Part shown: positions 4,538-34,836 of the stretch, in pieces
Layout: the number at the start of each line of letters is the position of its first letter
Numbering within the stretch: the first letter of the stretch is position 1
Assembly (NCBI RefSeq): GCF_000688295.1
Contig: NZ_JHZF01000013.1
Coordinates: 930,001-994,000, forward strand
Direction of reading: 5' to 3'
DNA from: Pseudooceanicola nanhaiensis DSM 18065
GTDB taxonomy: Bacteria; Pseudomonadota; Alphaproteobacteria; Rhodobacterales; Rhodobacteraceae
DNA: 64,000 nt
Translations under genes and position numbers: made by a program
The notes under the pieces: generated by a model
Databases searched by the model: none
Told to the model about the DNA's origin: nothing
Seen by the model: the letters and a program-made list of their open reading frames with translations, nothing else

Positions 4538-4543
4538 CGGGAG

Positions 4544-11917: not shown

Positions 11918-11985
11918 GAATTGACTCGAACAGCCACCTTGCACCGCAGGGCAGCACGGTCACCGCTCAAGACAGGAGTTTCGCT

Positions 11986-12153
11986 ATGCCGAGCCCGACC
12001 ACCCTTTCGATCGTGCAACCCGCACGCCCCGCCATGCCCACGCATGACGCCGAGGCGCTGACCGGCCCCGACGGGCTGGCGCGGATCGTTCTGAACGACC
12101 AGGTCTACCAGTTGCGGATCACCCGCGCCGGCAAGCTGATCCTGACCAAGTGA
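11986..12153 (+). CDS. hemP: hemin uptake protein HemP
   Basis: A 55-residue protein with the HemP C-terminal signature: a GPDGLARIVLNDQVYQLRITRAGKLILTK-like ending, where family members read YxLRxTrxGKLILTK. HemP is a small activator-like or accessory protein of haem uptake regulons. ATG 11986 is preceded by AGGAG nine bases upstream; longer in-frame starts lack one. The usual hmu haem transporter genes are not next to it: it stands alone between gntR (divergent) and a DinB gene (convergent). Iron regulation is expected from the family, but I did not recognise a clear Fur/Irr/RirA box. Confidence 0.85.
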   Translation: MPSPTTLSIVQPARPAMPTHDAEALTGPDGLARIVLNDQVYQLRITRAGKLILTK

Positions 12154-12175
12154 TCCCTCGGCCGGTCCCGGCGGC

Positions 12176-12688: not shown

Positions 12689-12749
12689 CCGCTGTCCTCC
12701 GGTCGCGATGCCCCGGGCAGCCTAGAGCGGGCGCGCCGGGCCGTCGAGA

Positions 12750-13559: not shown

Positions 13560-13694
13560 GCCGGTCCCCTGGATACCGCTCTGAATGCGGGTATTGTTGT
13601 TGCAGCCACTATATGTTGCGGGTGTGGCCCGATAAAGGCGTTCGGCGCAGGGAATGCGGGAAATGTGGCTCTAATGCAGCCCTTTTTCCGGGTC

Positions 13695-14903
13695 TCAGCC
13701 CTCGACGGCCTGGCCGAAGAGGACGATCCCCAGACCGAAGGTCGCGAGCAGGGCGAAGCCTGTGGCGCGGGCCCCGTCCCCGTCCCGCCGGGCGCCGATC
13801 GCGGCGAGGGCCGCCTGCAGGGCGTAGTAGCCCGCGAAGGCGCGCGAGGCGTAGGAGATGATCTCGAACACGTCCGCTGCCCAGGTGAGCGCGAGGCCCA
13901 CGAGCGTCAGCAGCGCGTAGGCGGTCCGGGGCGTCAGGCGCCCGCGCGAAAGCTCGGACAGCAGGCCGCCCGATCCGCTGGTGTCCGCCACCGCCGCGCT
14001 GAACTGCGCGGCCAGCGCGGCGGCCACCAGCAGCAAGGGCAGGGCCGGCGCGACGATGGCCATCATGTCGACGATGGCGGTCTCGGAGAAGGCCAGCTGG
14101 TCGGGCCGGAAGACATAGGCCAGGAGCAGGATGTAGACCATGTAGATCGCGGCCGAGAGCCATTGCGACCATTTCATCGAGCGGATTCGGGTGGGGACGT
14201 CGTAGCTCTGCCCGAGGTAGCGCGCGGTCTCGAACCCCTGCACGGTGACCAGCAGACCCATGACCAGCGTGAGCGCGCCGATCCCGGTCACCCGCGGCGG
14301 CGTCAGGACCAGCGCGCCCTCGCCCGCGCGCGCCGCGAAGAACACGGCGAGCCCCGTCAGCAGCGCCGCGATGATCGCCAGCTTGACCGAAACGGTGACG
14401 TATTCCATCCCCTCCAGCGCCGCGAACCCGCGGGTCCAGCCGGTCAGCAGGATCAGCGCGAAGACCGCCGTGGTGACGCAGCGGGCGGCGAGCGGGCCGT
14501 CCCATGGCGTGAGGTTGACCGCGAAGGCGCCGAAGAGGTTCAGGTAATAGGCGACCGAGATCATGTAGGCGAAGGCCAGCACCGCCGAGGCCAGCGTCTC
14601 GAGCCGCCTGTCTGCGGCGGGCCGAGGGTCCGCGCCCTCGCCGATCCGGGCGATATTGGCCCGCACGGCCGCGCCGTAAAGCCACGCGATCAGGGAGAGG
14701 ACAGCCATGGCGAGGGGCGCGAGCCAGCCGAAGGCATGTTCCAGAACCGGGCCCACGATCAGGAAGCCCGAACCGATGATCGAGGCCAGCGGCGTGACCA
14801 TGGCCCGCCACGTCGGGATCCCGCGCAGCCGCGGCAGCCAGAGCAGGGCGCCGACGCCCAGGGCCGCGACGAGCAGCAGGATATCGAGAGCTTGTGCGTT
14901 CAT
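13695..14903 (-). CDS. APC superfamily amino acid/polyamine permease-like protein
   Basis: A 402-residue integral membrane protein with about eleven to twelve hydrophobic segments. The first helix contains IIGSGFLIVGP, resembling the APC consensus GxGIF at helix 1, and the region TVQGFETARYLGQSYDVPTRI matches the conserved cytoplasmic loop after helix 6 of the family. It probably transports an amino acid or similar solute across the inner membrane. Start is taken at ATG 14903 (MNAQALDILLLVAALG); the upstream frame is Pro/Arg-rich and lacks a plausible start signal. It stands alone between mipZ and the divergent glsB-like gene. Confidence 0.8.
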   Translation of the reverse strand: MNAQALDILLLVAALGVGALLWLPRLRGIPTWRAMVTPLASIIGSGFLIVGPVLEHAFGWLAPLAMAVLSLIAWLYGAAVRANIARIGEGADPRPAADRRLETLASAVLAFAYMISVAYYLNLFGAFAVNLTPWDGPLAARCVTTAVFALILLTGWTRGFAALEGMEYVTVSVKLAIIAALLTGLAVFFAARAGEGALVLTPPRVTGIGALTLVMGLLVTVQGFETARYLGQSYDVPTRIRSMKWSQWLSAAIYMVYILLLAYVFRPDQLAFSETAIVDMMAIVAPALPLLLVAAALAAQFSAAVADTSGSGGLLSELSRGRLTPRTAYALLTLVGLALTWAADVFEIISYASRAFAGYYALQAALAAIGARRDGDGARATGFALLATFGLGIVLFGQAVEG

Positions 14904-21678: not shown

Positions 21679-21764
21679 GCCCGCCCTCCCCGCCGCGCGC
21701 GCGGCTGGTCCGCCAGCCCGAGGCTGCGGATGGTGTCGCCGATGATGCGGAAGACGCGGGTCAT
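21675..21764 (-). CDS. 29-residue micro-ORF bridging GNAT genes 6 and 7
   Basis: A 30-codon frame starting ATG at 21764 and ending TGA at 21675 encodes MTRVFRIIGDTIRSLGLA followed by a basic tail (PRARRGGR). The start overlaps the stop of GNAT gene 6 by four bases and the stop overlaps the start of GNAT gene 7 by four bases. A GGGGAGG lies about six bases before its ATG. The first half could form an amphipathic helix. It may be a real micropeptide or a device that keeps ribosomes coupled across the gap. Confidence 0.6.
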   Translation of the reverse strand: MTRVFRIIGDTIRSLGLADQPRARRGGRA

Positions 21765-22336
21765 GTCCGGGCCTCCCCGGCCTTGTAGCGGTAGATCACG
21801 GTGTCCTCGTGGGCGGCGGACAGCGCCGCGTCCACCTTCGCGCCCAGCCGTTCGGCCAGCGCGGCGGAGCGGGTGTTGCCCCTGGCGACGCAGCTTGTGA
21901 GCGTTGTCCAGCCGAGTTCCGCGAAGGCATAGTCGCGGGCCGCGCGGGCGGCTTCGGAGGCGATGCCCCGGCCCTCGGCCCGGCCGGTGAAGAGGTAGCC
22001 CAGCTCCGGCTCCGGGTCCTCCTGGTCGAAGCCCAGGAGGACGAAGCCGAGCGGCGCGCCGCCATCGCGGGGTTCGACGGTCCAGAGCCCGTGCCCGCGC
22101 AGCAGCCAGCCGGCGGCCATCTGGGAGAAGTCGAGCCAGGCCTCTTCGCGCGTCGCGATGTCGAGGTGCTTGCCGCGCGGGCCGAGCACGATCTCGGCAT
22201 AGGTGGCGAAATCCTCGGACAGCGGCGCGCGCAGGCGCAGCCGTTCGGTCACCAGCACGGGCACGCCGGAGGCGACGCGGCGGGCGAGCCGGGCGGAGGC
22301 ACCCGACGGAGCGGTTTCGCAGGCGAGCCTCGTCAT
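21761..22336 (-). CDS. GNAT N-acetyltransferase, array member 6
   Basis: A 191-residue GNAT, slightly longer than its neighbours because of a 28-residue N-terminal extension before VLVTERLRLRAPLSEDF. The motif GHW is replaced by MAAGWLLRGHGLWTVE, and the loop region reads PEPELGYLFTGRAEGRGIASEAARAARDYAFAELGW, with the more canonical Arg-x-x-Gly-x-Gly acetyl-CoA motif. The ending SAALAERLGAKVD is conserved. It is coupled by ATGA to gene 5 upstream and to the micro-ORF downstream. Substrate unknown. Confidence 0.87.
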   Translation of the reverse strand: MTRLACETAPSGASARLARRVASGVPVLVTERLRLRAPLSEDFATYAEIVLGPRGKHLDIATREEAWLDFSQMAAGWLLRGHGLWTVEPRDGGAPLGFVLLGFDQEDPEPELGYLFTGRAEGRGIASEAARAARDYAFAELGWTTLTSCVARGNTRSAALAERLGAKVDAALSAAHEDTVIYRYKAGEART

Positions 22337-22860
22337 GCCGCGGCCTCCGTCACGTCCGGGTGGCGCCAGATGTCGATCGGCGTGCCGCGCAGCTCGGACC
22401 GCTTTTCGATCGTCGCGCCCAGGCGGGTCGCCAGTGCGGCGGATCGGTCGTTGCGCGGGTCGATGAAGCTGATCGGCGCGCGGATGCCCAGGTCGCCGGC
22501 CGCGTAGGCCCGGGCGGCCAGCGCGGCCTCGTGGGCGAGGCCCTGACCCTCGAACCCGTCGAAGACGGCCCAGCCGAGCTCCGGCTCGGGCCAGTCGAGG
22601 TGGTGCAGGATGCCGGTCCAGCCCGCGGTCTTCCCGGTCTCGCGGTGCTCGATCACCCAGAGCCCGTAGCCGCGCATGTGCCAATGCCCGGCCAGGATCA
22701 TGAGCATGGAGTAGGTCTCCACCTCGCCGCGCTGGCCGCCGGTGAAATCGGCGCGGGGCGTGGTGAAATACTGCGCATAGCCGGGCAGGTCCGCGTCGCG
22801 GGGGCCGCGGAGGACGAGGCGCTCGGTCTCGATCACCGGGATGGGGGTCCGGAGGCTCAT
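22333..22860 (-). CDS. GNAT N-acetyltransferase, array member 5
   Basis: A 175-residue RimJ/RimL-type GNAT: VIETERLVLRGPRDADL at the N-terminus, AGHWHMRGYGLWVIEHRETGKTAG, then PEPELGWAVFDGFEGQGLAHEAALAARAYAA and SAALATRLGATIE. The C-terminus IDIWRHPDV is the recurrent IWRHP ending of this array. ATG 22860 overlaps the previous stop (ATGA). The divergence between paralogues is considerable outside the shared blocks, so these are old or fast-evolving duplicates rather than a recent expansion. Confidence 0.88.
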   Translation of the reverse strand: MSLRTPIPVIETERLVLRGPRDADLPGYAQYFTTPRADFTGGQRGEVETYSMLMILAGHWHMRGYGLWVIEHRETGKTAGWTGILHHLDWPEPELGWAVFDGFEGQGLAHEAALAARAYAAGDLGIRAPISFIDPRNDRSAALATRLGATIEKRSELRGTPIDIWRHPDVTEAAA

Positions 22861-23396
22861 GAATAGGCCTCCATCCCGCCGTCTGCGATGTCGGCGGGCG
22901 CGGGGTGGCGCCAGACCTGCATGTGGCCCCAGCGTTCGTGGGTGAATTCGCTGTCGAGGAAGGCGCCCATCCGGGCCGCGACCCTGGCCGAGGCTTCGTT
23001 GGCGGGCTTCACCAGCGAGATGACGGTCGTCCAGCCCAGCACGTCGTAGGCATAGGCGCGCGCGGCGAGCGCCGCCTCGGTGGCATAGCCCTTGCCCTCG
23101 GCGCCCTCGAAGAGGTCCCAGCCGATTTCCGGCTCGGGCCAGCCCTCGGGGTTCCAGAGGCCCACGTTGCCGACGATCTCGCCGGTCTCGGTGACCTCGA
23201 CCATCCAGCGGCCGTAGCCGCGCAGAGTCCAGTGGCCGATCTCGGTCCCGAGGTGGCGCCAGGCCAGCTCCGCCGTCAGCGGGCCGCCGACGAAGCGCGA
23301 GCGGTCCGAGGCGTAGAAGGCGCGCATCGGTTCGATGTCGCGGGCGTCGGGACCGCGCAGCGTCAGGCGTTCGGTGTGCAGGGTCGGGATCTTCAT
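22857..23396 (-). CDS. GNAT N-acetyltransferase, array member 4
   Basis: A 179-residue GNAT with the clearest version of the array consensus: LHTERLTLRGPDARD, YASDRSRFVGGPL, IGHWTLRGYGRWMVEVTETGEIVGNVGLWNPEGWPEPEIGW, then the acetyl-CoA loop FEGAEGKGYATEAALAARAYAYDVLGWT and SARVAARMGAFLD, ending VWRHP. Both ends overlap neighbours by four bases. Function unknown; the shared YASDRS-GGP block near residue 30 is probably part of the acceptor pocket. Confidence 0.88.
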   Translation of the reverse strand: MKIPTLHTERLTLRGPDARDIEPMRAFYASDRSRFVGGPLTAELAWRHLGTEIGHWTLRGYGRWMVEVTETGEIVGNVGLWNPEGWPEPEIGWDLFEGAEGKGYATEAALAARAYAYDVLGWTTVISLVKPANEASARVAARMGAFLDSEFTHERWGHMQVWRHPAPADIADGGMEAYS

Positions 23397-23920
23397 GCCG
23401 CCTTCTCCCTGAGGTCGAAATCGAAGCGGAGCGAGAGCGGCTCCCGCCCCGGCTCGGGGCTGAGCACGCCGCCGAGGGCCCGCGCGATGGCGATGGAGCC
23501 GTCGTTGTCCTCGTGCACGTAAGCCACGAGCTCCGTCCAGCCGAGGTCGTCGCGGTAGTGGCGGAGCGTTTCTGCGGCGGCCTCCCGGGCATAGCCCTTG
23601 CCTTCGTCGGCGCCGTCCCAGAGCGTCCAGGACAGTTCCGGCGGCAGGGTGTCGTCGTGGCAGAACGCGCCCACGTGGCCGATCGCGCGACCGGTCGCCT
23701 TTTCGGTGATCGTGTAGCGCCCGTAGCCGCGCAGCAGCCAGTGGCCCGCGAAGTTCGCGAGCTTGTCGAAGGCGAGGCGACGGGACTTCGGCCCGCCGAT
23801 ATAGAGCGTCCGTTCGCTCATCGAGTAGGCGGCAAAGGCGTCGAAATCCGACAGCTCGGGCCGGCGCAGGACCAGCCGCCCGGTGGTAAGCGTTTCGGCC
23901 GCGATCAGGGGCGTGCTCAT
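23393..23920 (-). CDS. GNAT N-acetyltransferase, array member 3
   Basis: A 175-residue GNAT. Blocks in order: LTTGRLVLRRPELSDFDAF, YIGGPKSRRLAFDKLANFAGHWLLRGYGRYTITEKATGRAIGHVG, LPPELSWTLWDGADEGKGYAREAAAETLRHYRDDLGW, and SIAIARALGGVL. The C-terminus differs (LSLRFDFDLREKAA), lacking the WRHP ending. ATGA overlaps on both sides. The conserved Gly-x-Gly loop indicates acetyl-CoA binding; the acceptor is not predictable. Confidence 0.87.
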   Translation of the reverse strand: MSTPLIAAETLTTGRLVLRRPELSDFDAFAAYSMSERTLYIGGPKSRRLAFDKLANFAGHWLLRGYGRYTITEKATGRAIGHVGAFCHDDTLPPELSWTLWDGADEGKGYAREAAAETLRHYRDDLGWTELVAYVHEDNDGSIAIARALGGVLSPEPGREPLSLRFDFDLREKAA

Positions 23921-24474
23921 GCGAGGCCCTCCAGCAGCTTGCGGCCCGCCTGCGTCTTGGGCAGGTGGCGCCAGATCCGCATCTCGCCGGTCATCTTGTG
24001 ATCGAAGATGCCCTCGGAGCGGGCGCCCAGCCGGGTCACCAGCGCGGTCGAGCGGGGGTTCTCCTCGTCCACGAGGGAGATGCAGGAGGCCCAGCCTCTC
24101 TCGCGGAAGAGCCAGTCGAGCACGCCGCGCGCCGCCTCGGTGGCATAGCCCTTGCCCTCGGCGCCCTCGAGCAGCTGCCAGGACAGCTCGGGCTCGGGCC
24201 AGCCCTTCGGGAACCACGGGCCGACGAGGCCGACATGCAGGCCGGTCGCCTTCTCGCTGACCGCAAAATGGCCATAGCCGCGCAGGTGCCAGTGGCCGAT
24301 GATGGTGGCGATGGACCACCAGACGGCCTCCTCGTCGGGGTACTGATCGACGAAGGGGCGGGCACCGGCCATCAGGTAGGCGGCGGTGGCGTCGAAATCC
24401 GGCGCGGCGGGGCAGACGAGGCGCAGCCGCTCGGTCAGGATCTCGGGATAGGCCATGGGGGCGGGGCGCATCAT
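23917..24474 (-). CDS. GNAT N-acetyltransferase, array member 2
   Basis: A 185-residue GNAT. It begins MMRPAPMAYPEILTERLRLVCPAAPDF, then IIGHWHLRGYGHFAVSEKATGLHVGLVG, PEPELSWQLLEGAEGKGYATEAARGVLDWLFRERGW and STALVTRLGARSE, with IWRHLPKT near the end. The start is ATG 24474 because it overlaps the stop of gene 1 by four bases; the following ATG is the alternative. Its YLMAGARPFVDQYPDEEA block replaces the GGP motif of the others, suggesting a different acceptor. Confidence 0.87.
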   Translation of the reverse strand: MMRPAPMAYPEILTERLRLVCPAAPDFDATAAYLMAGARPFVDQYPDEEAVWWSIATIIGHWHLRGYGHFAVSEKATGLHVGLVGPWFPKGWPEPELSWQLLEGAEGKGYATEAARGVLDWLFRERGWASCISLVDEENPRSTALVTRLGARSEGIFDHKMTGEMRIWRHLPKTQAGRKLLEGLA

Positions 24475-25022
24475 CGGGCGGCCTCCGCGGTCAGTGCCGT
24501 CAGGTCGTGGTAGATGACCACGTCGCCCGGCTCGGTCCCCGGCAGGTCGCTGCGGCGGGTGCCGCCGATCCGCTCGCCAAGCGCGATGGACCGGGCGTTG
24601 CCCGGGTCGATGTAATTGACGAGGTGATCGAGGCCCAGCGTGTCCCGCGCCCAGTGCAGCACGGCCGTCGCGGCCTCCCGCGCGATGCCGCGGCCCTCGG
24701 CCTCGGGGACGACGAACCAGCCGAGCTCGGGCTTGGGGTAGCCCTCGGGCTGGTAGATGCCGACCTCGCCCAGATAGGTGCCGTCCGTGTCCTCGACCGA
24801 GAACGGGCCCGCGCCCATGAGCGGCCATTGCGCCACCTCGGAGGCCCAGATCCGCCACGCGGTCTCACGCGACACGGGGCCGCCTTCCCAGACCGAACGG
24901 TCCGAGGCGTAGAATCCCGCCCGATGCTCGAAATCCGCCAGCACCGGCATGCGCAGGCGCAGCCGGGCGGTGGTGAGCGTCGGCGCGACCGCGAGGTCGC
25001 TGAGGCGGGCCGCCCTGGTCAT
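24471..25022 (-). CDS. GNAT N-acetyltransferase, array member 1 (first)
   Basis: A 183-residue GNAT, first of eight. LTTARLRLRMPVLADFEH and FYASDRSVWEGGPVSRETAWRIW match member 4, but the GHW-LRGYG block is degenerate (QWPLMGAGPFSVEDTDG). The acetyl-CoA region is PKPELGWFVVPEAEGRGIAREAATAVLHWARDTLGL, with SIALGERIGGTRR following. Its ATG shares one base with the ffh stop (TAATG), so the array is translated directly after the SRP GTPase. Substrate unknown. Confidence 0.88.
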   Translation of the reverse strand: MTRAARLSDLAVAPTLTTARLRLRMPVLADFEHRAGFYASDRSVWEGGPVSRETAWRIWASEVAQWPLMGAGPFSVEDTDGTYLGEVGIYQPEGYPKPELGWFVVPEAEGRGIAREAATAVLHWARDTLGLDHLVNYIDPGNARSIALGERIGGTRRSDLPGTEPGDVVIYHDLTALTAEAAR

Positions 25023-26530
25023 TACTTCTTCTTCCCGAAGCCGCTGAGGCCCGGGGGCAGGGCCGCGCCGCTGCCCATGCCGCCGAAACCGCCGGGCATC
25101 TTGCCGCCGGGCATGGTGCGGCCCATCTGCTTGGCCGCCGCCTCCAGCGCCTGCGGGTCCATCTGGGAGGGGTCCATGCCGCCCTTGCCCATCGACTTCA
25201 TCGCCTGCTTGAGCATGCCGCCTTTGCCCATCTTGCCCATCTTCTTCATCATGTCCGCCATCTGGCGGTGCATCTTGAGAAGCTTGTTCAGGTCGGAGAC
25301 CTCCATGCCCGAACCCGCCGCGATCCGCTTCTTGCGGCTCGCCTGCAGGATCTGCGGGTTCGCCCGCTCGCGCTTGGTCATCGACTGGATCATCGCGATC
25401 TGGTGCCGGATGGCGCTGTCGTCGAAGCCCGCCTCCTGCACCTGCTTGGCCATCTTGCCCATGCCGGGAAGCATGCCCATCACGCCTTCCATGCCGCCCA
25501 TCCTGAGCATCTGGTCAAGCTGCTCGCGCATGTCGTTCATGTTGAACTGGCCCTTGGCGAAGCGCTTCATCATGCGCTCGGCCTGCTCGGCCTCGATCGT
25601 CGCCTGCGCCTTCTCGACGAGGGCCACGATGTCGCCCATGCCGAGGATCCGGCCGGCGATCCGCTCGGGCTCGAAGGTCTCGATGGCGTCCATCTTCTCG
25701 CCGAGACCCACGAAGCGGATCGGCTTGCCGGTCACCGCGCGCATCGACAGCGCGGCGCCGCCACGGCCGTCGCCGTCCATCCGGGTCAGGACCACGCCGG
25801 AAACGCCGATCTTGTCGTCGAACTCCTCGGCCACCTCGACGGCGACCTGGCCCGTCAGGCCGTCGACCACGAGCAGCGTCTCGCGCGGGTTCACCACGTC
25901 GCGCACGTCGGCGGCCTGCTGGATCAGCTCCTGGTCGATATGCAGCCGACCGGCGGTGTCGAGCATGTAGACATCGTAGCCGCCCAGGGACGCCTGCGTC
26001 TTGGCGCGCCTGGCGATCTGCACCGGGGTCTCGCCCTTCACGATCGGCAGCGTGTCGACGCCGATCTGCACGCCGAGGATCTGCAGCTGCTCCATCGCGG
26101 CCGGGCGGTTGACGTCGAGCGAGGCCATCAGGACCCGCTTGCCCTCGCGATCCTTCAGCCGTTTGGCGAGTTTCGCGGTGGTCGTCGTCTTGCCCGACCC
26201 CTGGAGGCCGACCATCAGGATCGGCGCGGGGGCGTTGTCGATCTTCAGCTTGCCGGGGTCGCCTTCGCCCTGCAGCACGTGGACCAGCTCGTCATGCACG
26301 ATCTTGACGACCTGCTGGCCGGGGGTGATCGACTTGGTGACCGCCTGGCCGGTGGCCTTGTCCTGCACCGCCTTCACGAATTCCCGCGCGACGGGGAGGG
26401 AGACGTCGGCCTCCAGCAGCGCCACGCGGACCTCGCGGAGCGCGGTCTTCACGTCGTCCTCGGAGAGCGCCCCCTGCTTGGTCAGCCGGTCGAAGACGCC
26501 GGAGAGGCGTTCGGAAAGATTTTCAAACAT
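25022..26530 (-). CDS. ffh: signal recognition particle GTPase Ffh
   Basis: A 502-residue SRP54-type GTPase that, with 4.5S RNA, brings nascent membrane proteins to FtsY. N domain (MFENLSERLSGVFDRL), G domain with GLQGSGKTTTTAKLA, DTAGRLHID and TRMDGDGRGGAALS, then the M domain with methionine-rich helices (MRMGGMEGVMGMLPGMGKM) and a Gly/Met-rich tail ending GFGKKK. ATG 26530 has AGGAGG in front. The eight acetyltransferase genes follow directly, starting with a one-base overlap. Confidence 0.97.
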   Translation of the reverse strand: MFENLSERLSGVFDRLTKQGALSEDDVKTALREVRVALLEADVSLPVAREFVKAVQDKATGQAVTKSITPGQQVVKIVHDELVHVLQGEGDPGKLKIDNAPAPILMVGLQGSGKTTTTAKLAKRLKDREGKRVLMASLDVNRPAAMEQLQILGVQIGVDTLPIVKGETPVQIARRAKTQASLGGYDVYMLDTAGRLHIDQELIQQAADVRDVVNPRETLLVVDGLTGQVAVEVAEEFDDKIGVSGVVLTRMDGDGRGGAALSMRAVTGKPIRFVGLGEKMDAIETFEPERIAGRILGMGDIVALVEKAQATIEAEQAERMMKRFAKGQFNMNDMREQLDQMLRMGGMEGVMGMLPGMGKMAKQVQEAGFDDSAIRHQIAMIQSMTKRERANPQILQASRKKRIAAGSGMEVSDLNKLLKMHRQMADMMKKMGKMGKGGMLKQAMKSMGKGGMDPSQMDPQALEAAAKQMGRTMPGGKMPGGFGGMGSGAALPPGLSGFGKKK

Positions 26531-26889
26531 GCCCGGCCCTCCTGCGGCCCCTGAAATGCGACATGCCCCCGATGTGGGCGGGGACGGTGAGTTACACAAG
26601 CGCGAACCGAAGGCGCGCGCCCAAACGACGATGGCACCAGTGGGCGCAACGCGCTGACTGGTGGCGATCCCTGCTCGAATGGCAAAGGGACCGGAAGTGC
26701 CTTGGCTTCCGGGTATTGCAGCGGCGTTTAGGCCCGCGCGGGCGCGGAGTCAAGGAAAGAGCGGCCCCGGAGCCGCCGGGCGCGGGTTTCCGACACCCGG
26801 GCGCCGGGCCTGTTCGCGTGCCTGCCCCTACGGCATTTACAGGGCGCGCGGTTTTTTCCATCCTCGGCGCAGCGTCACAGGAGGCCCGC
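26531..26889. other. divergent intergenic region between ffh and the caspase-like gene
   Basis: About 359 bases that must contain the ffh promoter and the promoter of the exported caspase cluster. Frames cross it on both strands but carry no recognisable family. I could not assign a convincing sigma-70 promoter or operator; an AT-rich patch near 26850-26862 precedes the caspase-like gene. Confidence 0.4.
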
Positions 26890-29862
26890 TTGTCCCTCGT
26901 TCCCGTCCTTGCCCGCGCCATGGTCGCGCTTGCCCTCGCCACGCAGGCCTGCGCGCAGGAGGCGCCCGAGCTGCGGCTGGAGCTCGACACCGGCGGGCAT
27001 CTCGCGGTGATCCGGGCGCTTTCGGCGGATGCCTCGGGGCGCCATGTCGCCTCGGCCTCCGAGGACAAGACCGTCCGGGTCTGGGACCTGGCGGGCGCCG
27101 CGCCTCCGGTGGTGCTGCGGGGCTACGCGGGGCCCGGCAACGACGGGATGGTGAACGCGGTGGCGCTGTCCCCGGACGGGCGCTTCGCCGCGGTCGGCGG
27201 CTATTTCGGCCCGCATCACGCGGTGGACGCGACATTCGGCGACGTGCGCATCTTCGACACCCGCACGCGCGAGGTGGTGCGGGTGCTCGAAGGCCACCGC
27301 TACGTGGTCGACAGCATCGCCTATTCGGCCGAGCGGGACGAACTGGCGGTGACCGGGCAGGGCGGGATCGTGATGCGCTGGAAGGACCCCTTCGGCGCGG
27401 CGCCCGAGGCCCTGCCCCCGCTCGACAGCCAGGCAAGCCGGGTGCTGCGGGTGGCCTATGCGGCGGGCGGCACGCGGGTGCTGGCGGCGACGACGGATTA
27501 CGGGCTGCGGATGTGGTCCCTGCCGGAGGGCGCCGAGATCGCGCCGCCCGAGGCGGAACCGCTCTGGGACATCGTGGTGAGCGGGCTGGCGGTCAGCCCC
27601 GACGGCGCGCGCTTCGCGGTCTCGGGTTCGGACGGGCGGGTGGAGATCCGGGCCAGCGCCGACGGTGCCGTGATCGCGCGCCTGCCGGAACGGCCCTTCC
27701 GCGCGGATGCGCTGGCCTTCACGCCGGACGGGCGGCTGGCGGTCGGCTGCAGCTATCGCTGCGCCGGGGCGCACGAGGCCGAGGTCTGGACGCCCGGCGC
27801 GACGGCGCCGGACACGGTCTACCGCGACCACGACGGCGCGGTGAGCGCGGCGCTGGCGCTGCCCTCGGGCGCGGTGGTCACGGCGGGCGGGCGGGGCACC
27901 GCGCTGCATGTCTGGCAGCCGGGCGCAAACGCGGCGCGCCGGGTGCTCTCGGGCGCGGGCACCCCGGTGACGGCGGCGGGGATCGCGCCCGACGCCTCCT
28001 GGATCGCCTGGGGCCGGGCGGATCCCTGCCCGGACCGCCCCGTCTGCCCCGAGGTGCTGGCCCCGCTCGCCATGCGGATGGACCTGCCGCAGGGCGACCG
28101 CGGCTTCGGACCGCCGGGCCCCGGCGACACCGCGGCCGCGCTCCGCGCGCGGCTCGAGGGCGACGGCCGCACGCTCAGCTTCGAGACGGCGCCGGGCGCG
28201 GGGTTCGTCGGCGATACGATGGCGATCTCGGGCGCGGCAAAGCCCGTCCGCCTGCGCCGCTCGGCGACCGACGGGTATTACCACAGCGCGGCCACCCTCG
28301 CGGGGGAGGAGGCGATTTCCGGCGGCGCCAGCGGCCTGCTGCTCGCCTATGGCCCCGACGGCGCCTTCGCGGGCGAGTTCCGGGGCCACACCGGCGACAT
28401 CCTGGCGCTGGCGGCCGCGCCCTCGGCCGGGCGGCTGCTTTCGGCGGCGGCGGACCGGACGATGATCCTATGGAACCTCGCCACCCGGGCCGAGATCGCG
28501 CGCTTTTTCGTGGCCGGGGATCAGTGGATCACCTGGACGCCGCAGGGCTATTTCCACGCCTCGCCCGATGGCGACCGCATGGTCGGCTGGCGGGTGAACC
28601 GCGGCCGCGACGCGGCGGCCCGCTACATCCGGGCGAGCGAGCTGAAGCGTCATCTCCATTCGCCCGAGATCGTCCGGCGCGCGATCCTCGCCGGCGATCC
28701 GGCACAGGCGGCGCGGGACCTGCGCGGGACCGATGGCGAGCTTGCGGCGCTGCTGACCCGTGCCCCGCCCGCCTTCGACCTGCGCCTCGCGTCCGAGATC
28801 GACGCGCCCGAGGGGGCCGCGGTGCTCGAGATCACGGGCGCCGGGGTCGAGGAGATCGAGGCCTGGGGCTATTCCATCCTCGTCAACGACCGCCGCGTGC
28901 CGCCGCTGCCCTACCCGGACCCGACCGGGCAGGGGCGCAAGCTCTACCAGGTGCCGCTCGGCCCGGGCGAAAACGCGATCAGCGTCACGGGAGAGGACGA
29001 TTTCGGCTATGTCGCCGAACGCGCGGCGATGGCCCTTGGCGAGACGGTCGCGCGCGCGCCCGAAAAGGTGGGCAAGCTCTATGTCGCGGTGATCGGCGTG
29101 GCGGATTACCCGAACCTGCCCGAGGGCTGCAACGGCGGGCCCTGCGATCTTGCCTACCCGGTGCAGGACGCGGTCGAGATGCTGGCGACCCTGGCCGAGA
29201 CGACCGGCCGGCTGCACACGGAGATGGAGACGCTGGTGATGGTCTCGCCCTCGCGCCTGGCCGGGTCGGACCGGCTGATGCAGGCGCTGAGCGCGGTCAC
29301 GCCCGCCGATGCCGTCCTGCCGCCCGAGGGCCGGCTGGTGGAGGATGCGCTGACCGATTTCCTCGCCAGGCCCGGGCCCGAGGACACCACCATCGTCTTC
29401 GTCGCCGGGCACGGGCTGAACCTCGACGAGGATTACTACCTGCTGCCCGAGGATGCCGAACAGCGCGGCGGGGAATGGCGGACCCGCTCGCTCTTCGACT
29501 GGCAGATCCTGCAGGAGGAGCTGGGCTATGCCCTGGGGCGCCGGATCCTGCTGATCGACACCTGCCACGCCGCGGGCGCCTTCAACGCGCGGCTCGAGAA
29601 GGACGCGGCCGATGCGCGGATCGTGGTCTTCTCGGCCACCGCCGCCAACAACACCGCCGCCGAGCGCCGCGACCTCGGGCACGGGATCTTCACCTACGCC
29701 CTGCTCGAGGGGCTGCGCGGCAAGGCGGCCTCGGGCGACGGGGTGCGGCTGCTGGGGCTTGCGGATTACGTCCATCGCGAGGTGCTGCGGCTGTCCGACG
29801 CCCGGCAGGAGCCGTTCTATTCGCTGCTCGAGACCTCCAACTTCCTGCTGGCGCAGCCGTGA
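26890..29862 (+). CDS. exported WD40-repeat caspase-like (C14) protease
   Basis: A 990-residue protein. A signal peptide (MSLVPVLARAMVALALATQACA) precedes about 550 residues of WD40 repeats (for example ASASEDKTVRVWDL and LLSAAADRTMILWNL), a linking beta domain, and from about residue 722 a caspase/metacaspase p20-like domain. The catalytic dyad is visible: His841 in FVAGHG and Cys892 in LIDTCHA. TTG 26890 was chosen because AGGAGG lies eight bases upstream and it begins the signal peptide; no ATG fits. Its TGA overlaps the GTG start of the MEMO-CapA gene. Bacterial WD40-caspase fusions are known but their roles are largely unknown; periplasmic location is inferred. Confidence 0.88.
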   Translation: MSLVPVLARAMVALALATQACAQEAPELRLELDTGGHLAVIRALSADASGRHVASASEDKTVRVWDLAGAAPPVVLRGYAGPGNDGMVNAVALSPDGRFAAVGGYFGPHHAVDATFGDVRIFDTRTREVVRVLEGHRYVVDSIAYSAERDELAVTGQGGIVMRWKDPFGAAPEALPPLDSQASRVLRVAYAAGGTRVLAATTDYGLRMWSLPEGAEIAPPEAEPLWDIVVSGLAVSPDGARFAVSGSDGRVEIRASADGAVIARLPERPFRADALAFTPDGRLAVGCSYRCAGAHEAEVWTPGATAPDTVYRDHDGAVSAALALPSGAVVTAGGRGTALHVWQPGANAARRVLSGAGTPVTAAGIAPDASWIAWGRADPCPDRPVCPEVLAPLAMRMDLPQGDRGFGPPGPGDTAAALRARLEGDGRTLSFETAPGAGFVGDTMAISGAAKPVRLRRSATDGYYHSAATLAGEEAISGGASGLLLAYGPDGAFAGEFRGHTGDILALAAAPSAGRLLSAAADRTMILWNLATRAEIARFFVAGDQWITWTPQGYFHASPDGDRMVGWRVNRGRDAAARYIRASELKRHLHSPEIVRRAILAGDPAQAARDLRGTDGELAALLTRAPPAFDLRLASEIDAPEGAAVLEITGAGVEEIEAWGYSILVNDRRVPPLPYPDPTGQGRKLYQVPLGPGENAISVTGEDDFGYVAERAAMALGETVARAPEKVGKLYVAVIGVADYPNLPEGCNGGPCDLAYPVQDAVEMLATLAETTGRLHTEMETLVMVSPSRLAGSDRLMQALSAVTPADAVLPPEGRLVEDALTDFLARPGPEDTTIVFVAGHGLNLDEDYYLLPEDAEQRGGEWRTRSLFDWQILQEELGYALGRRILLIDTCHAAGAFNARLEKDAADARIVVFSATAANNTAAERRDLGHGIFTYALLEGLRGKAASGDGVRLLGLADYVHREVLRLSDARQEPFYSLLETSNFLLAQP

Positions 29863-31496
29863 TCCGGGCGCTGCTGCTCTGGGCCGCGTCGGCCTCTGCC
29901 GGGTTCGGCGCCTGCCCGGAGGGCAGGGCGCCCTTCCCGCCCTTCTACACCGATGCGGCGCTCTTCGAGGGCGCGCTGGCGGCGACCGGGCACGAAGCCC
30001 CGGCGCCCGACCCGGTGCGCGCGGTGACGGTGCCGCATCATCTGGAGGTCCCGGAGCTGATCGCGCTCGGCCTGCGCCGCGCGGGCGGGGCGCCGCGCCG
30101 GATCGTCGTGCTGTTCCCGGACCATTTCCGCGGGCTGCGCCGGCATCTGGGCACCACGACCCGCGGGTTCGAGACCCTGCTGGGCCCCGTTCCCGCCGAT
30201 CCGGCGGCGCAGGCGCTCATCGACAGCGGGCTGGCCGAGGATGCCTGCATCTTCGACCGCGATCACGGGGTCCGAGCCGTGCTGCCCTTCCTCGCCCGCC
30301 TGCATCCCGGGGTGCCGGTTCTGCCGCTGGCCATCGGCATCGGCTCGGGCCCCGCGGAATGGGAGGCGGCGGCGGACGCGCTCGCGCCGCTCGTGGACGC
30401 CGGGACGCTGCTGGTGCAGGCCACCGATTTCTCGCATTACCTGCCGCATCACCTTGCCCGGCAGCGCGACCAGCAGGTGCTGAACCTGATGGCCGCGGGC
30501 GATCTCGACGCGATCGCGGCGCTGCGGCAGCCCGACCACGTGGACAGCCTCGGCGCGCTCTGGGTGACCTCCCGGCTGATGGCGGCGCAGGGGATGGCGC
30601 CGGTGGTGATCGCGAACCGCAACCTGCAGGAAGGGCACCGCGACTTCATCGCCGAGACGACGAGCTACGTCGTCGCGCTCTACCAGCCGCCGGGCGCCGA
30701 CCCCGGCCCGGCGCCGGGTGACACGCCGGTCTACATGCTGGGCGGCGACTTCTTCACCGGCCGGGCCCTGACGCCGCTGCTCGCCGACGCGCATGTGGCG
30801 GACCGGGTCGCCGCGGCGGCACGGCAGGCCACCCGCGGTCTGCCGCTGGTGCTGAACCTCGAGGGCGTGCTGCTGGAGGAGGTGCCCGCCGGGCTGGAGC
30901 ACCTGACGCTCGGGATGCCCGCGGCGCTGGCCGTGGCCATGGCGGAGAGCCTGGGCGTCGCGGGCTTCGGCCTGGCCAACAACCATGCGAACGACCTCGG
31001 CGTCTCGGGCCGGGCGGCGACCCGGGCGGCGCTGGCGGAGGCGGGGATCGCCTTTGCCGGGCCGGGCGAGGCGCTCGACCTGCCGGGGCTGCGGATCGTG
31101 GCGCTGAGCGATCTCGACGGGCAGGGCGGACAACTCACCGATGCGGCGCTCGACGCGCTGGTCTCGGACCCGGGCGTCCCGGTGCTGGCCTTCGTGCACT
31201 GGGGCGAGGAATGGGTGACCGCGCCCTCGGACCGCGAGCGCGACCTCGCGCTGGCCATGTCGCGGCGCGGGGTGGCGGCCGTGGTGGGCGCCCATCCCCA
31301 CGCCGCCGGCGCCGGCGTCTCGGTGGTGAACGGCGGCGACACCGGCGTGGTCCATTCGCTGGGCAACTTCCTGTTCGACCAGCGCCCGCCCGCGGCGAGC
31401 GGCGCGCTTGTCGAGGTCCGGACCTTTCCGCAAGGCACGCTGTTCCTGCGGCAGATTCCGCTGCCACCGCTCTACGAGATCGCGCGCGGGCGCTGA
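29859..31496 (+). CDS. MEMO-like / CapA-like metallophosphatase fusion, exported
   Basis: A 545-residue two-domain protein. Residues about 20-280 resemble the MEMO (AmmeMemoRadiSam protein B) family: VPHHLEVPE (His60/61), LFPDHFRG (His89) and TDFSHY (His193), but the position of the usual metal-site cysteine (TxCG) reads DSLGAL, with leucine at 231. Residues about 290-530 resemble CapA/PgsA metallophosphatases: GGDFF, NLEG, NNHANDLG, HWGEEW, GAHPH and SLGNFLFDQ. The N-terminus MIRALLLWAASASAGFGACPEG looks like a signal peptide. GTG 29859 overlaps the caspase stop (GTGA). The fusion suggests action on a surface polymer. Confidence 0.82.
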   Translation: MIRALLLWAASASAGFGACPEGRAPFPPFYTDAALFEGALAATGHEAPAPDPVRAVTVPHHLEVPELIALGLRRAGGAPRRIVVLFPDHFRGLRRHLGTTTRGFETLLGPVPADPAAQALIDSGLAEDACIFDRDHGVRAVLPFLARLHPGVPVLPLAIGIGSGPAEWEAAADALAPLVDAGTLLVQATDFSHYLPHHLARQRDQQVLNLMAAGDLDAIAALRQPDHVDSLGALWVTSRLMAAQGMAPVVIANRNLQEGHRDFIAETTSYVVALYQPPGADPGPAPGDTPVYMLGGDFFTGRALTPLLADAHVADRVAAAARQATRGLPLVLNLEGVLLEEVPAGLEHLTLGMPAALAVAMAESLGVAGFGLANNHANDLGVSGRAATRAALAEAGIAFAGPGEALDLPGLRIVALSDLDGQGGQLTDAALDALVSDPGVPVLAFVHWGEEWVTAPSDRERDLALAMSRRGVAAVVGAHPHAAGAGVSVVNGGDTGVVHSLGNFLFDQRPPAASGALVEVRTFPQGTLFLRQIPLPPLYEIARGR

Positions 31497-31500
31497 AGTC

Positions 31501-31530
31501 TTGCCAGATCCGGAGCGGCGCCGGTAACAT
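31501..31530 (+). promoter_or_regulatory. possible promoter of the MORN gene
   Basis: TTGCCA (31501-31506) and TAACAT (31525-31530) with an 18-base spacer lie just after the MEMO-CapA stop and before the MORN-repeat gene. A weak candidate; co-transcription with the upstream pair is equally possible. Confidence 0.3.
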
Positions 31531-31556
31531 TCGCGTTATTTACGGATGAGGTTTGC

Positions 31557-33368
31557 ATGACCCGACGTTTTCTTATCGCCGTCCTCTCGGCCCATTTCCT
31601 GTCCGCCGCCCCCGCGATCGCCGATCCGCAGACCGCCCCCCAGGAGCGCCTGCACGTGCTCTATGACCGGGCCGCGGGCGAGGTCGTGCGCCGCATGGTG
31701 CGTGTCGTTGCCCCGCATCCCGAGCTCAGCCTGACCTTCCGCTGGGATCCTGCGCCCGGGAACTGGCCCGGCGTCGATGCGGCGGGCTTTGCCGAGGGGC
31801 CGGGCGTGGTGACGTGGCGGATCGAGGGGCTGGCCGATTACGATCCGCGCGGCGTCGATCACCGCTACGAGGGCAGTCTGAAGGCCGGGCGCTTCGAAGG
31901 GCCGGGCCAGCTGACCTACCGCGACGGGGCCGAGCGCCGCGGCCAATGGATCGCCGGCAGGCTCGAGGGCGAGGGCTACAGCCGCGATGCCGGGGGCAAT
32001 GTCTACGAGGGCGGTTTCGCCGCGAACCGCCCGGACGGCACGGGCACCTGGCGCGGGCGCGACGGCACGGTCTACGCGGGCGGGTTCGTGGCCGGAGAAC
32101 GGCACGGCCCCGGCCGCATCACCGAGCCGGGCGGCCTGAGCTACGCGGTCACCCATGACATGGGGCAACTGGTCGAAACCGCCCGGCCCGACGTGCCCGA
32201 CGCGCTGGTCGGCGGGCTGCTTCCGGCACAGGGCGGGGATTCCGCCTCCAACGTCAGGTTGGCGCTCGGGGTCGACCTGCGGACCACCGAGAATGCCGCG
32301 GTGCAATATGCCAGCGAGGCCGCCGACGGTTCGGTCTACATCTTCCCGCGCGACGAGGGCGACCAGAACCTCTGGAACGGGCGGGGCTGGCTGTCGGAAT
32401 TCGGCTATACCCTCAGGCGCGGCACCGATGCGGAATGGGACGAGACGCGCGCCTTCCTCGCCCTCGAGATGGGGACCAGAAACGGCGGGCGGGAGCGGCT
32501 GAAGTCGCTCGACCTCGTCGTGCGTCAGGCCGCGCCGCATCTCCAGCCGATGCTGACGGCCGATCCGCACCTGGGCTGTGTCGGCTTCCGGCCCAGCTTC
32601 TCGATCCTGAATTACGGCTGGGGACCGGTCGAGAGCGGCACCGCGCAGGTCCGCTTCATCGACCCGAAGGGCTACGATCCAAACGTCCCGCGCGGGCAGG
32701 AGCATGGCTCGGGCTGGTTCGAGCTGCCGATCCCCCGGATCGAGCAGGGCGTTGACATCTACGTGCGCGATGTCCTCGCCGCGGCGGGGGTGGACGTGAA
32801 CCGGCTGGAGACCGAGCGCTTCACCTGCCCCTCTGCGGACCTGCTGGACCAGTGCCGGGCCACCGCGAAGCAATCGGTGAACTTCGGCCAGCTCGGACCC
32901 TACGTGAACGGCTGGGACGGGCTGAGTACGCGGATGCAGGCGAAGATGAGCTACGGCTGGACCGACGCTTTCGGCAAGCCGCAGACCTCGGAGCAGTGGT
33001 TCTCGGTCGACATTCCGCTGCTCAAGATCGAAACGCCCGCGCCGCTGGCCGAGTGCGGCGATGCCGGGGCCTATGCGCCCGAGGCGCCGCAGTTCCAGCA
33101 CGTCGAGCTGAACCCGGACGCGGGCGGATACCGGGTGAACATCCCGGTCCGCGGCAATCCGAACATCGACCGGCTGATCGCGGGGCTCGCGCTCTGGTCG
33201 CGCAAGAGCGCATGGCACAACTTGCAGGTCGAGGCGAGCTTCGCCGACGGCAGCGTCCGCAGCACGCCGCCCGTCCACCTGTTCTTCCTGCACCCGCGGC
33301 AGCCCGCGTTCACCAGCAGCGCCCGCCCGGCGAGCTGCTACCTCGACCCGGCCGGGGGGAGTTGCTGA
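31557..33368 (+). CDS. exported MORN-repeat protein
   Basis: A 603-residue protein with a signal peptide (MTRRFLIAVLSAHFLSAAPAIA) and four or five MORN motifs at about residues 95-205 (YEGSLKAGRFEGPGQLTYRDG, YEGGFAANRPDGTGTW, YAGGFVAGERHGPGRI). The remaining 400 residues form a beta-rich region with several cysteines and no family I recognise; the protein ends in GGSC. MORN repeats usually bind lipid or act as scaffolds. ATG 31557 has GAGG five bases upstream. It lies 60 bases after the MEMO-CapA gene and is probably part of the same exported cluster. Confidence 0.78.
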   Translation: MTRRFLIAVLSAHFLSAAPAIADPQTAPQERLHVLYDRAAGEVVRRMVRVVAPHPELSLTFRWDPAPGNWPGVDAAGFAEGPGVVTWRIEGLADYDPRGVDHRYEGSLKAGRFEGPGQLTYRDGAERRGQWIAGRLEGEGYSRDAGGNVYEGGFAANRPDGTGTWRGRDGTVYAGGFVAGERHGPGRITEPGGLSYAVTHDMGQLVETARPDVPDALVGGLLPAQGGDSASNVRLALGVDLRTTENAAVQYASEAADGSVYIFPRDEGDQNLWNGRGWLSEFGYTLRRGTDAEWDETRAFLALEMGTRNGGRERLKSLDLVVRQAAPHLQPMLTADPHLGCVGFRPSFSILNYGWGPVESGTAQVRFIDPKGYDPNVPRGQEHGSGWFELPIPRIEQGVDIYVRDVLAAAGVDVNRLETERFTCPSADLLDQCRATAKQSVNFGQLGPYVNGWDGLSTRMQAKMSYGWTDAFGKPQTSEQWFSVDIPLLKIETPAPLAECGDAGAYAPEAPQFQHVELNPDAGGYRVNIPVRGNPNIDRLIAGLALWSRKSAWHNLQVEASFADGSVRSTPPVHLFFLHPRQPAFTSSARPASCYLDPAGGSC

Positions 33369-33435
33369 CGCGGCAGCCCTTGCCCGTCGCGCCGCTTCGC
33401 TGCATCAAGGCCCGACGAAGCCGAGGGAGGGGCAT

Positions 33436-34836
33436 GTGCTGGACGACTACCGCGCCATCGTGGGCGAGAAATACCTGCTGACCGGAGAGGGCGCCGCCCG
33501 CTGGACGACGGACGCCACCGGCAAGATCAAGGCGACGCCGCTGGCCGTGGCCCGGCCCGCGGACACGGCCGAGGTGGCCGCGCTGGTGACGGCCGCGAAC
33601 GCCGCCGGGCAGGCCATCGTCCCGGCAGGCGGGCTGACCGGGCTCACCGGCGCCACGGCGGCCGAGGGCGCGCTGGTGATCTCGCTCGACCGGATGAACG
33701 CGATCCGCGAGATCCGGCAGGACGCGCGGTCGGCGGTGGTCGAGGCGGGGGTGGTCCTGACCCGGCTGCACGAGGCGGTCGAGGACAGGGGCCTGAGCTT
33801 TCCGCTGACCTTCGGTGCGCGCGGCTCCTGCATGGTGGGTGGCTTCCTCTCGACCAATGCCGGCGGTTCGAACGTGCTGCGCTACGGCAACACCCGCGAC
33901 CTCGTGCTCGGGATCGAGGCGGTGCTGCCCTCGGGCGAGGTGCTGGACCTGATGACGGGCCTGCACAAGAACAATTCCGGCTACGACCTGCGGCACCTGA
34001 TGATCGGGGCCGAGGGAACGCTGGGCATCATCACCGCCGCCGTCCTGAAGCTGGTGCCGAAGCCGCGCGCCCATGCGACCGCCATGCTTGCCCCCCGCGA
34101 CCTCGGCGCGGCGCTGAAGATCCTGAACGCGGTGCAGGAGGACAGCGGCGGCGCGGTCGAGGCCTGCGAATACATGCCGGGCGATTACGTCGAGAACTAT
34201 GCGCAGATGCATCCCGAACACGGGATGCCCTTCGACACGCCGCAGCCCGTCAACGTGCTGATGGAGCTCGGCTCCACCGTGCCGCGGGACAGCACGCCCG
34301 GCCCGGACGGAGAGGTGCCGCTCGTCGCCCGCTTCGAGGCGATCCTGGGCCGGTTCTTCGAGGAGGGCCTGCTGCTCGATGCCGTGGTGGCGCAGAGCGA
34401 GGCGCAGCGCCGCGTGATGTGGGCCCGGCGCGAGGCCGCGGCCGAGGTCGCGGGCACGCGGTCGCCGCGGGTGACGAACGACGTCGCGGTCGAGGTCGAC
34501 CGGATGGACGAATTCATCACGCGGGCGGACGCGGTGCTGGCCCGGGTCGATCCGGGCGCCGGGCGGTCGATCGTCGCCCATCTCGGCGACGGCAACATCC
34601 ACTACACCGTCTGGCCCGGCAGCGACGATCCCCTGGAGCACGACCGGATGGTCGAGGCGATCGAGGATATCGTCGTGGACATGCGCGGCAGTTTCTCTGC
34701 CGAGCACGGGATCGGGATCTACAAGCTGAACTCGATGGCGCGGCGGAAGAACCCGGCCGCGCTCGGCGCGATGCGCGCCATCAAGGCCGCGCTCGATCCG
34801 AAGGGGATCATGAACCCGGGCAAGATGCTGCCCTGA
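33436..34836 (+). CDS. FAD-linked oxidase, D-lactate/D-2-hydroxyacid dehydrogenase type
   Basis: A 466-residue flavoprotein of the GlcD/DLD family. The PCMH-type FAD domain contains AIVPAGGLTGLTGATA and GARGSCMVGGFLSTNAGGSNVLRYG, and the C-terminal domain carries the HLGDGNIHY metal/substrate motif and SAEHGIGIYK. It should oxidise a D-2-hydroxyacid (lactate, glycolate or 2-hydroxyglutarate) and pass electrons to a quinone or cytochrome. Start is GTG 33436 with GGGAGGGG upstream. Located 67 bases after the MORN gene, but a metabolic link is not apparent; convergent with the ArsR gene. Confidence 0.88.
   Translation: MLDDYRAIVGEKYLLTGEGAARWTTDATGKIKATPLAVARPADTAEVAALVTAANAAGQAIVPAGGLTGLTGATAAEGALVISLDRMNAIREIRQDARSAVVEAGVVLTRLHEAVEDRGLSFPLTFGARGSCMVGGFLSTNAGGSNVLRYGNTRDLVLGIEAVLPSGEVLDLMTGLHKNNSGYDLRHLMIGAEGTLGIITAAVLKLVPKPRAHATAMLAPRDLGAALKILNAVQEDSGGAVEACEYMPGDYVENYAQMHPEHGMPFDTPQPVNVLMELGSTVPRDSTPGPDGEVPLVARFEAILGRFFEEGLLLDAVVAQSEAQRRVMWARREAAAEVAGTRSPRVTNDVAVEVDRMDEFITRADAVLARVDPGAGRSIVAHLGDGNIHYTVWPGSDDPLEHDRMVEAIEDIVVDMRGSFSAEHGIGIYKLNSMARRKNPAALGAMRAIKAALDPKGIMNPGKMLP

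Follow-up and report, generated by a model that had tools for sequence, protein, structure and literature searches.

The 64,000-nt window analysed in this work (Pseudooceanicola nanhaiensis DSM 18065, NZ_JHZF01000013.1, positions 930,001-994,000; this strain's genome is G000 below) contains three consecutive genes that encode a WD40-orthocaspase (gene 1), a fusion of Memo and CapA domains (gene 2, Memo-CapA) and a MORN-repeat protein with a conserved C-terminal domain (gene 3), all three of them exported-looking (Table 1). A first-pass annotation had singled out this trio, and its coordinates, TTG and GTG start codons, GTGA overlap, His841/Cys892 pair and domains were all confirmed from the sequence and with Pfam. 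Comparison across bacterial genomes shows linkage and co-inheritance of the three genes.

Table 1. Features of the three-gene locus, in positions of the window
Feature	Position	Strand	Basis
Shine-Dalgarno-like AGGAGG before the gene 1 TTG start	26879..26884	+	read from the sequence
Gene 1, WD40-orthocaspase, exported-looking, 990 amino acids	26890..29862	+	open reading frame, Pfam, orthologues
Peptidase_C14 (caspase p20) domain of gene 1	29089..29823	+	Pfam
Gene 2, Memo-CapA fusion, exported-looking, 545 amino acids	29859..31496	+	open reading frame, Pfam, NCBIfam
Memo (class III extradiol dioxygenase-like) match, residues 71-220	30069..30518	+	Pfam; aligned to human MEMO1 chains
CapA/PGA_cap (calcineurin-like) domain, about residues 292-508	30732..31382	+	Pfam; aligned to MslH chains
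Promoter-like site between genes 2 and 3	31501..31530	+	consensus match only
Gene 3, MORN-repeat protein with conserved C-terminal domain, exported-looking, 603 amino acids	31557..33368	+	open reading frame, Pfam, orthologues
MORN repeats of gene 3, about residues 104-200	31866..32156	+	Pfam
C-terminal domain of gene 3, about residues 205-603, kept in a MORN-less plasmid homologue	32169..33365	+	no Pfam match

Relatives of Memo-CapA were collected with a pattern-based scan of 84,980 species' genomes, which returned 281; the best 80 loci were used (numbered with the prefix L), with flanks of up to 10 kb, and many of them are from Mesorhizobium. The WD40-caspase is the same as that of the window in 50 of the 80. 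Presence and absence of neighbours were counted in those loci, 63 in all, whose flanks reach at least 3.5 kb before Memo-CapA and 2.5 kb after it; here the WD40-caspase is present in 45, a homologue of the MORN protein or its C-terminal domain (MORN/C-domain) in 52, and both partners in 42. The conserved co-occurrence for which the first-pass annotation had proposed a search is thus borne out in these loci, as it is in the same two of 198 family genomes, and its refuting outcome, neighbours that differ in most relatives, did not appear among the relatives fetched. Three loci (L043, L077, L082) hold the caspase without a MORN homologue, and ten a MORN homologue without the window-type caspase, among them L099, where a distant WD40-caspase stands in another order. 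Mapped on a tree of the 53 Memo-CapA rows left after thinning, WD40-caspase presence takes five changes versus 17.9 in shuffles, a difference to which near-copies may contribute, since they also cluster labels; three caspase-less rows inside the caspase clade (L046, L076, L079) begin less than 170 bases from a contig end. The caspase and Memo-CapA genes overlap by exactly 4 nt in 14 of 50 pairs. In 39 of 47 loci the strand of gene 3 is the opposite one, and the co-transcription of all three genes that had been envisaged is not supported. One promoter-like site was found in 26300-33600 of the window, with 0.2 expected; it falls between genes 2 and 3, so that gene 3 may have a transcript of its own.

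The genes flanking the trio change from locus to locus. In the window, ffh and a GNAT gene were identified on one side and an FAD-linked oxidase gene on the other. Within 4 kb (less in several cases), a comparison of 11 Rhodobacteraceae loci and the window gave a shared non-module gene for two pairs only (the window with L037, and L039 with L042); further genes shared by Rhodobacteraceae flanks are, by their places, a second caspase and a trypsin-like gene of the module described below. A chance neighbourhood is ruled out, because the trio is kept amid these changing flanks and co-occurs in genomes. Simple Mesorhizobium synteny was also discarded as an explanation, given that the trio is found in Rhodobacteraceae with other flanks, and in another gene order in L045 and L056; the Mesorhizobium loci themselves count little as independent cases, since flanking genes are common to them. 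Distances of the three proteins over 45 rows (L041, L073, L083 and L108 excluded) correlate at 0.98-0.99, which shared species history alone could give.

The family was sampled with 198 genomes and the class with 289. At an expectation value (E) of 1e-3, Memo-CapA matches 19 family genomes, near full length only in G000 and G184 and as a single domain in the other 17. Gene 3, queried from residue 144, matches four at 1e-10 (in full in G000 and G184, and along some 50 residues of repeats in the other two), and the caspase domain five at 1e-10, strongly in G000 and G184 and at 1e-11 to 1e-12 in the remaining three. Strong matches to all three genes are found in the same two family genomes, G000 and G184, and elsewhere in the family there is none to any of them. 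In the class genomes, Memo-CapA is found at E 1e-20 or better in G000 only; gene 3 matches 28 of 289 at 1e-5, those listed outside G000 covering the repeat region only (best 9e-17), and the caspase domain 15 of 289 (best outside G000, 2e-16). At these thresholds all three genes are missing from G192, the one same-genus genome sampled in the family. The 18 kb around the nearest FAD oxidase of G192 (60%) contain no ffh and no trio, and for this reason no insertion border was drawn from this genome. From this co-occurrence in family and class genomes, the module is rare, patchy and kept whole.

Gene 1 starts with TTG at 26890 and has a signal-like N-terminus at about residues 1-22. Pfam detects WD40 (1.8e-27) and, above its cut-off, Peptidase_C14 (PF00656; 1.8e-11, residues 734-978), with the catalytic dyad at His841 (VAGHG) and Cys892 (DTCHA) when residues are counted from the TTG start. 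H841, C892, D760 and D890 are invariant in the aligned caspases (51/51), as are the cysteine pairs 287/291, 380/386 and 747/752. Near-copies were thinned and partial rows removed from the two alignments used, leaving 34 rows in A1 and 51 in A2; conservation counts for the three proteins exclude L031, L073, L101, L107 and L115, those of gene 3 also L041 and L083. In a pairing by motif that is our own, D760 and D890 are taken to match Asp95 and Asp211 of the trypanosome metacaspase TbMCA2, whose nucleophile is Cys213. Asp95 and Asp211 are described as TbMCA2 pocket residues (PMC4357240) and orthocaspases as cleaving after positively charged residues (PMC6426788). The gene 1 caspase is predicted to cleave after Arg or Lys, because acidic residues stand at its supposed S1 pocket. 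Its score against NCBIfam 'caspase, EACC1-associated' (NF047832) is 47.3 bits, below the cut-off of 140. Peptidase_C14 matches at seven places in G000, and Memo-CapA at a single one. A WD40-caspase copy from Mesorhizobium kowhaii (L108, 6426-9770, 967 amino acids) has an odd C-terminal end and is perhaps damaged.

Gene 2 starts with GTG at 29859, overlapping gene 1 by the 4 nt GTGA. Both its Pfam domains, Memo (3.6e-10) and PGA_cap/CapA (3.1e-25), are present in 51 of 51 homologues scanned. Across 51 proteins, H89, D190, D297, E335, N374, N375, H376, H447 and H481 are invariant and H60, H61, H136, H193, D379, E451 and H479 are kept in at least 90%; C19 and C130 occur in 55 of 78 rows each. The Memo half aligns with MEMO1, His and Asp motifs included, and scores 60.4 bits (cut-off 26) against AmmeMemoSam_B (TIGR04336), and in this it resembles AmmeMemoRadiSam protein B and MEMO1; unlike them, it is fused to CapA and looks exported. 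To our knowledge, no role has been established for the Memo fold in bacteria. The AMMECR1 domain is absent from 51 of 51 Memo-CapA members, and the three window neighbours scanned (ffh, GNAT, FAD oxidase) include neither AMMECR1 nor the radical SAM partner of the AmmeMemoRadiSam system. Three family genomes with short Memo hits were found on scanning to carry AMMECR1-Memo fusions instead; L031, L032 and L034, suspected to be divergent Memo-CapA copies, were rejected as such when Pfam identified AMMECR1-Memo fusions in these relatives of the window's family. Memo-CapA has no match in 50,697 phage records, in a search that did not extend to genes 1 and 3.

The CapA half has its closest solved relatives in chains of the lasso-peptide epimerase MslH (1.7e-15). 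MslH residues D11, E44, N87, H88, D91, H259 and H295 align by motif with D297, E335, N375, H376, D379, H447 and H481, so that both His/Asp dyads and three ligands of this calcineurin-like fold find a counterpart; the ligand His261 does not, for it aligns with Gly449, invariant in Memo-CapA, and H479 is kept instead. Gene 2 further differs from MslH in the Memo domain that stands in front and in its score against NF038314, 19.1 of 700 bits and thus far below the cut-off. MslH is a Ca-dependent peptide epimerase with the dyads His88/Asp91 and His295/Asp11 (PMC10406935). The qualification of gene 2 as polymer-linked is not supported, with no polymer gene among the three flanking genes scanned and an epimerase as the best solved CapA relative. 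The CapA/poly-gamma-glutamate system is defined by capB/C, and a scan that covered neighbours of the window copy and of L047, L093, L086, L109 and L099 found no capB/C (pgsB/C) gene.

In gene 3, the MORN repeats (Pfam, 2.4e-11) are followed by some 400 amino acids that match no Pfam family. Its family keeps C424 and C433 in 59 of 59 sequences and four further cysteines in 48 to 56 of 59. A scan of 72,556 plasmid records yielded one Memo-CapA match, on the conjugative Rhizobium leguminosarum plasmid pRL31b3, and the only gene 3 match in those records is the gene adjoining it. This homologue (408 amino acids) has no MORN match, aligns with residues 299-583 of gene 3 and also matches the MORN proteins of types A and B defined below. 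Because it keeps the C-terminal part beside Memo-CapA, the alignment suggests that Memo-CapA is partnered, in most alphaproteobacterial loci, by the C-terminal domain of gene 3 and that the repeats look optional; the membrane-scaffold role proposed for the MORN protein is not supported, given a homologue that lacks them. Beyond the C-domain gene, pRL31b3 carries genes for a TIR-nSTAND1-WD40 protein and for one annotated as CHAT. In L077, a 7TMR-DISM histidine-kinase-type protein (11693-13834, minus strand) takes the place of the MORN gene of other Rhizobiales, and L099 carries two C-domain proteins in tandem (2012-3280 and 3305-5173, the second with MORN), followed by Memo-CapA and the distant WD40-caspase.

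The set of genes around Memo-CapA differs among bacterial groups. In Rhodobacteraceae (type A) it comprises the WD40-caspase, Memo-CapA and MORN genes, mostly on one strand, and in G184 a second caspase adjoins the trio. Most Rhizobiales loci present a second caspase, a small exported-looking protein rich in Cys, a DUF4760 protein that has a membrane segment, the WD40-caspase and Memo-CapA, and then, on the opposite strand, MORN and a trypsin-like protein. The second caspase, Cys-rich, DUF4760 and trypsin-like genes occur in 43, 40, 40 and 42 of the 80 loci; some Rhodobacteraceae have them too, with all four in L045 (which holds all seven genes of the Rhizobiales form in different order and strands), the second caspase and trypsin-like gene in L056, and the second caspase in L079. 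Type B, seen in three Devosia loci (L094, L097, L098) and their relative L093, combines caspase-FGE, an RyR protein, Memo-CapA, MORN and TIR-nSTAND1-WD40, and Bauldia and Rhizobium SL86 keep MORN and the TIR-nSTAND1 homologue; these assignments, and the count of TIR-nSTAND1-WD40 homologues in 7 of 80 loci, were made by similarity, with Pfam for L093 only. The RyR-domain protein of L093 (7786-9840, minus strand), between caspase-FGE and Memo-CapA, has a hydrophobic N-terminal stretch. Three caspase forms thus accompany Memo-CapA and MORN/C-domain proteins: the window type, caspase-FGE (L093) and the distant WD40-caspase (L099). Neighbour frames in other loci were picked with a simple gene caller, and some may be shadow frames; in the GC-rich window this caller selects such frames and was not relied on.

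Outside the Alphaproteobacteria other pairings appear. In type C (Deltaproteobacteria, Riflebacteria and one Peregrinibacterium) 7 of the 80 loci have a DUF3160 gene next to Memo-CapA or close by (L086, L087, L089, L091, L092, L105, L112), forming a second conserved pairing. In candidate phyla (L109, L111, L113, L114, L115), a Memo-CapA relative lies near a conserved protein of about 600 amino acids (751 in L111); the copies of L109, L111 and L114 have no Pfam match, and a kinship of this protein with DUF3160 was rejected after a similarity search found none. The first-pass annotation had advised looking for gasdermin or toxin neighbours: TIR-STAND, second caspase and trypsin-like genes do occur in relatives, and no gasdermin match was found among the neighbours scanned, in a survey that covered a minority of the loci and presumed that Pfam models bacterial gasdermins.

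The second caspase keeps the motif D.CHS in 44 of 44 sequences, and 32 of the 44 have, by a rough pattern, a twin-arginine-like motif close to the N-terminus. In G000 its orthologue (G000:C13:1033455-1035560; 41%, 1.1e-125) lies some 70 kb from the trio, beyond the window, and a second relative is found at G000:C13:1026995-1028815. In the segment that holds both (L178, G000:C13:1022000-1041000) they correspond to 4798-6846 and 11390-13570, about 33-40 kb past the window end, and a DegP-like protease (Trypsin_2 and PDZ) is encoded between them. No orthologue of the trypsin-like protein was found in G000, in a search run without a positive control. Elsewhere in the window, tandem overlapping frames resembling GNAT acetyltransferases lie beside ffh (21761-25022, minus strand; Pfam-checked for 24471-25022 only), and an Rfam ffh small RNA (RF01793, 62.5 bits) precedes ffh at 26627-26678 on the minus strand.

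The export signals reported for the trio were upheld insofar as all three window proteins pass a hydrophobic-N-terminus rule, a sign that is weak for gene 2. Including the window, the rule is passed by 51 of 52 gene 1, 75 of 83 gene 2 and 53 of 62 gene 3 family members; the corresponding figures for internal control stretches are 174 of 731, 241 of 569 and 58 of 480. Start codons of homologues were assigned by a set rule, and the partial row L073 was scored as a pass for gene 1. Lipobox-like N-termini occur in Deltaproteobacteria and candidate-phylum homologues, by a rule that also matches three alphaproteobacterial copies and the window. Hydrophobic N-termini and invariant cysteine pairs are hence the sequence signs by which the three proteins look exported.

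A search of the open-access literature by title and abstract, whose scope excluded subscription journals and preprints, found no description of the trio or of Memo-CapA. Like orthocaspases (C14B, p20-only), gene 1 has a p20 domain with a His-Cys dyad and, putatively, an acidic S1 pocket; it is set apart from them by its export signs, its three invariant cysteine pairs, the N-terminal WD40 and the link to Memo-CapA. Combinations of MORN and caspase have been described as single MORN-metacaspase proteins (PMC4933709); here they are separate proteins, and the C-terminal domain is kept where MORN is not. Conflict systems built on STAND or MoxR-VMAP employ caspase, trypsin and TIR effectors (PMC10907252), and caspase, trypsin-like, TIR, STAND, WD40 and FGE-type parts surround Memo-CapA in relatives. 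The proposed core, an exported-looking enzyme with a partner, distinguishes the present loci from those systems, and no NTPase hub was found among the window neighbours scanned. In PADLOC-DB 2.0.0, the caspase model is matched by the Rhizobiales second caspase at 1.1e-13, and the TIR protein of L093 gives weak ThsB-like TIR matches (4.5e-5).

Our tentative reading, which we favour, is that the trio constitutes one proteolytic, death-like module of the cell envelope, in which a Memo-CapA/C-domain core is combined with caspase outputs that can be exchanged. The core, formed by Memo-CapA and the C-terminal domain of gene 3, would make, remove or sense an envelope-derived ligand and would control an output protease, which in the window type would be an orthocaspase gated by its WD40 propeller. 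In the Rhizobiales, the caspase, the second exported caspase and, downstream, the trypsin-like zymogen would compose a periplasmic proteolytic cascade. In Devosia and Rhizobium, caspase-FGE, RyR or TIR-STAND proteins, which are familiar components of bacterial conflict and death systems, would stand in as the output. An attack on the envelope would then end in its regulated damage or in death, or in a strong envelope stress response. The His and Ser motifs of the trypsin-like protein are conserved in 40 of 40 sequences (L046 excluded), and 38 of 40 have Arg at the proposed boundary of the zymogen, a weak pointer to a caspase site because this is one of four Arg columns kept in at least 90% up to the boundary.

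Several observations weigh against such a module. Three of those Arg columns, kept in 36 to 40 of 40 sequences, lie inside the propeptide. Neither the caspase nor a MORN homologue is found in 8 of the 63 loci (Deltaproteobacteria, Riflebacteria, candidate phyla), where Memo-CapA often lies near DUF3160 or another secreted protein, so the chemistry of Memo-CapA is not tied to caspases; in L052 the caspase is missing although the upstream DNA extends for more than 9 kb, which suggests a true loss. No MORN/C-domain homologue was found in six alphaproteobacterial loci (L043, L076, L077, L082, L100, L101) in the DNA at hand, also with the plasmid query, the remaining genome lying outside the search. 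Gene 1 matches the PADLOC caspase model weakly (4.1e-5), genes 2 and 3 match no model, and the trio thus has no strong match to a known defence system there. The three window neighbours scanned include no conflict-type gene, so that the conflict-system flavour rests on the neighbours of relatives (TIR-nSTAND1, RyR, caspase-FGE, CHAT), for which Pfam identifications cover a few genes in each of about a dozen loci, similarity having been used in the others.

The same genes might serve envelope maintenance instead, in periplasmic quality control or wall remodelling, with the caspases and trypsin-like protein as processing or housekeeping proteases, Memo-CapA as a phosphoesterase-like enzyme and no death function. 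Chromosomal location with vertical-looking inheritance, the flanks shared within Mesorhizobium, the congruent distances of the three proteins (r 0.98-0.99, partly shared species history) and the DegP-like protease gene adjoining one second-caspase relative in G000 all agree with this account; we nonetheless judge it rather unlikely, in view of the patchy presence (2 of 198 family genomes, and absence from the sampled same-genus genome), the replacement of the output by TIR-STAND, RyR and caspase-FGE, and the copy on a conjugative plasmid. Quite improbable, in our estimate, is a role in peptide or polymer maturation, in which CapA would be a metal-dependent epimerase or hydrolase acting on an exported peptide or polymer, Memo its oxidase-like partner and the caspase a maturation protease. 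The MslH chains as best solved relatives, the alignment of the dyads His295/Asp11 and His88/Asp91 (PMC10406935) with H481/D297 and H376/D379, and the origin of the CapA name in capsule synthesis speak for it, but Gly449 in place of His261 with H479 kept, the low NCBIfam score and the lack of a pgs-type gene in the few loci whose neighbours were scanned do not. A true defence system, acting by anti-phage abortive infection in the envelope, could account for the patchy presence, the TIR-nSTAND1-WD40 homologues of seven loci, with the weak ThsB-like matches of the L093 one, and the plasmid copy with a CHAT protein nearby; yet genes 2 and 3 have no PADLOC model and no STAND or MoxR hub appears among the genes scanned at type A loci, and we regard it as decidedly unlikely.

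Bacterial caspases have mostly been studied as cytosolic parts of defence and death systems. The envelope module favoured here can be counted among the caspase-based bacterial systems, its core being possibly of a new kind. It is conceivable, if doubtful, that it represents a novel class of envelope surveillance, in which an exported Memo-CapA and C-domain core licenses exchangeable exported caspases, and elsewhere TIR-STAND or RyR proteins, in a periplasmic rather than cytosolic cascade, together with a two-centre Memo-metal/CapA chemistry kept from candidate phyla to Alphaproteobacteria. If this were true, intact caspases exported with a two-domain metalloenzyme would place caspase signalling in the bacterial envelope. 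The bacterial Memo fold would then gain a genetic context in culturable rhizobia and Rhodobacteraceae, and the module points to a conserved domain, at the C-terminus of gene 3, that has no Pfam family.

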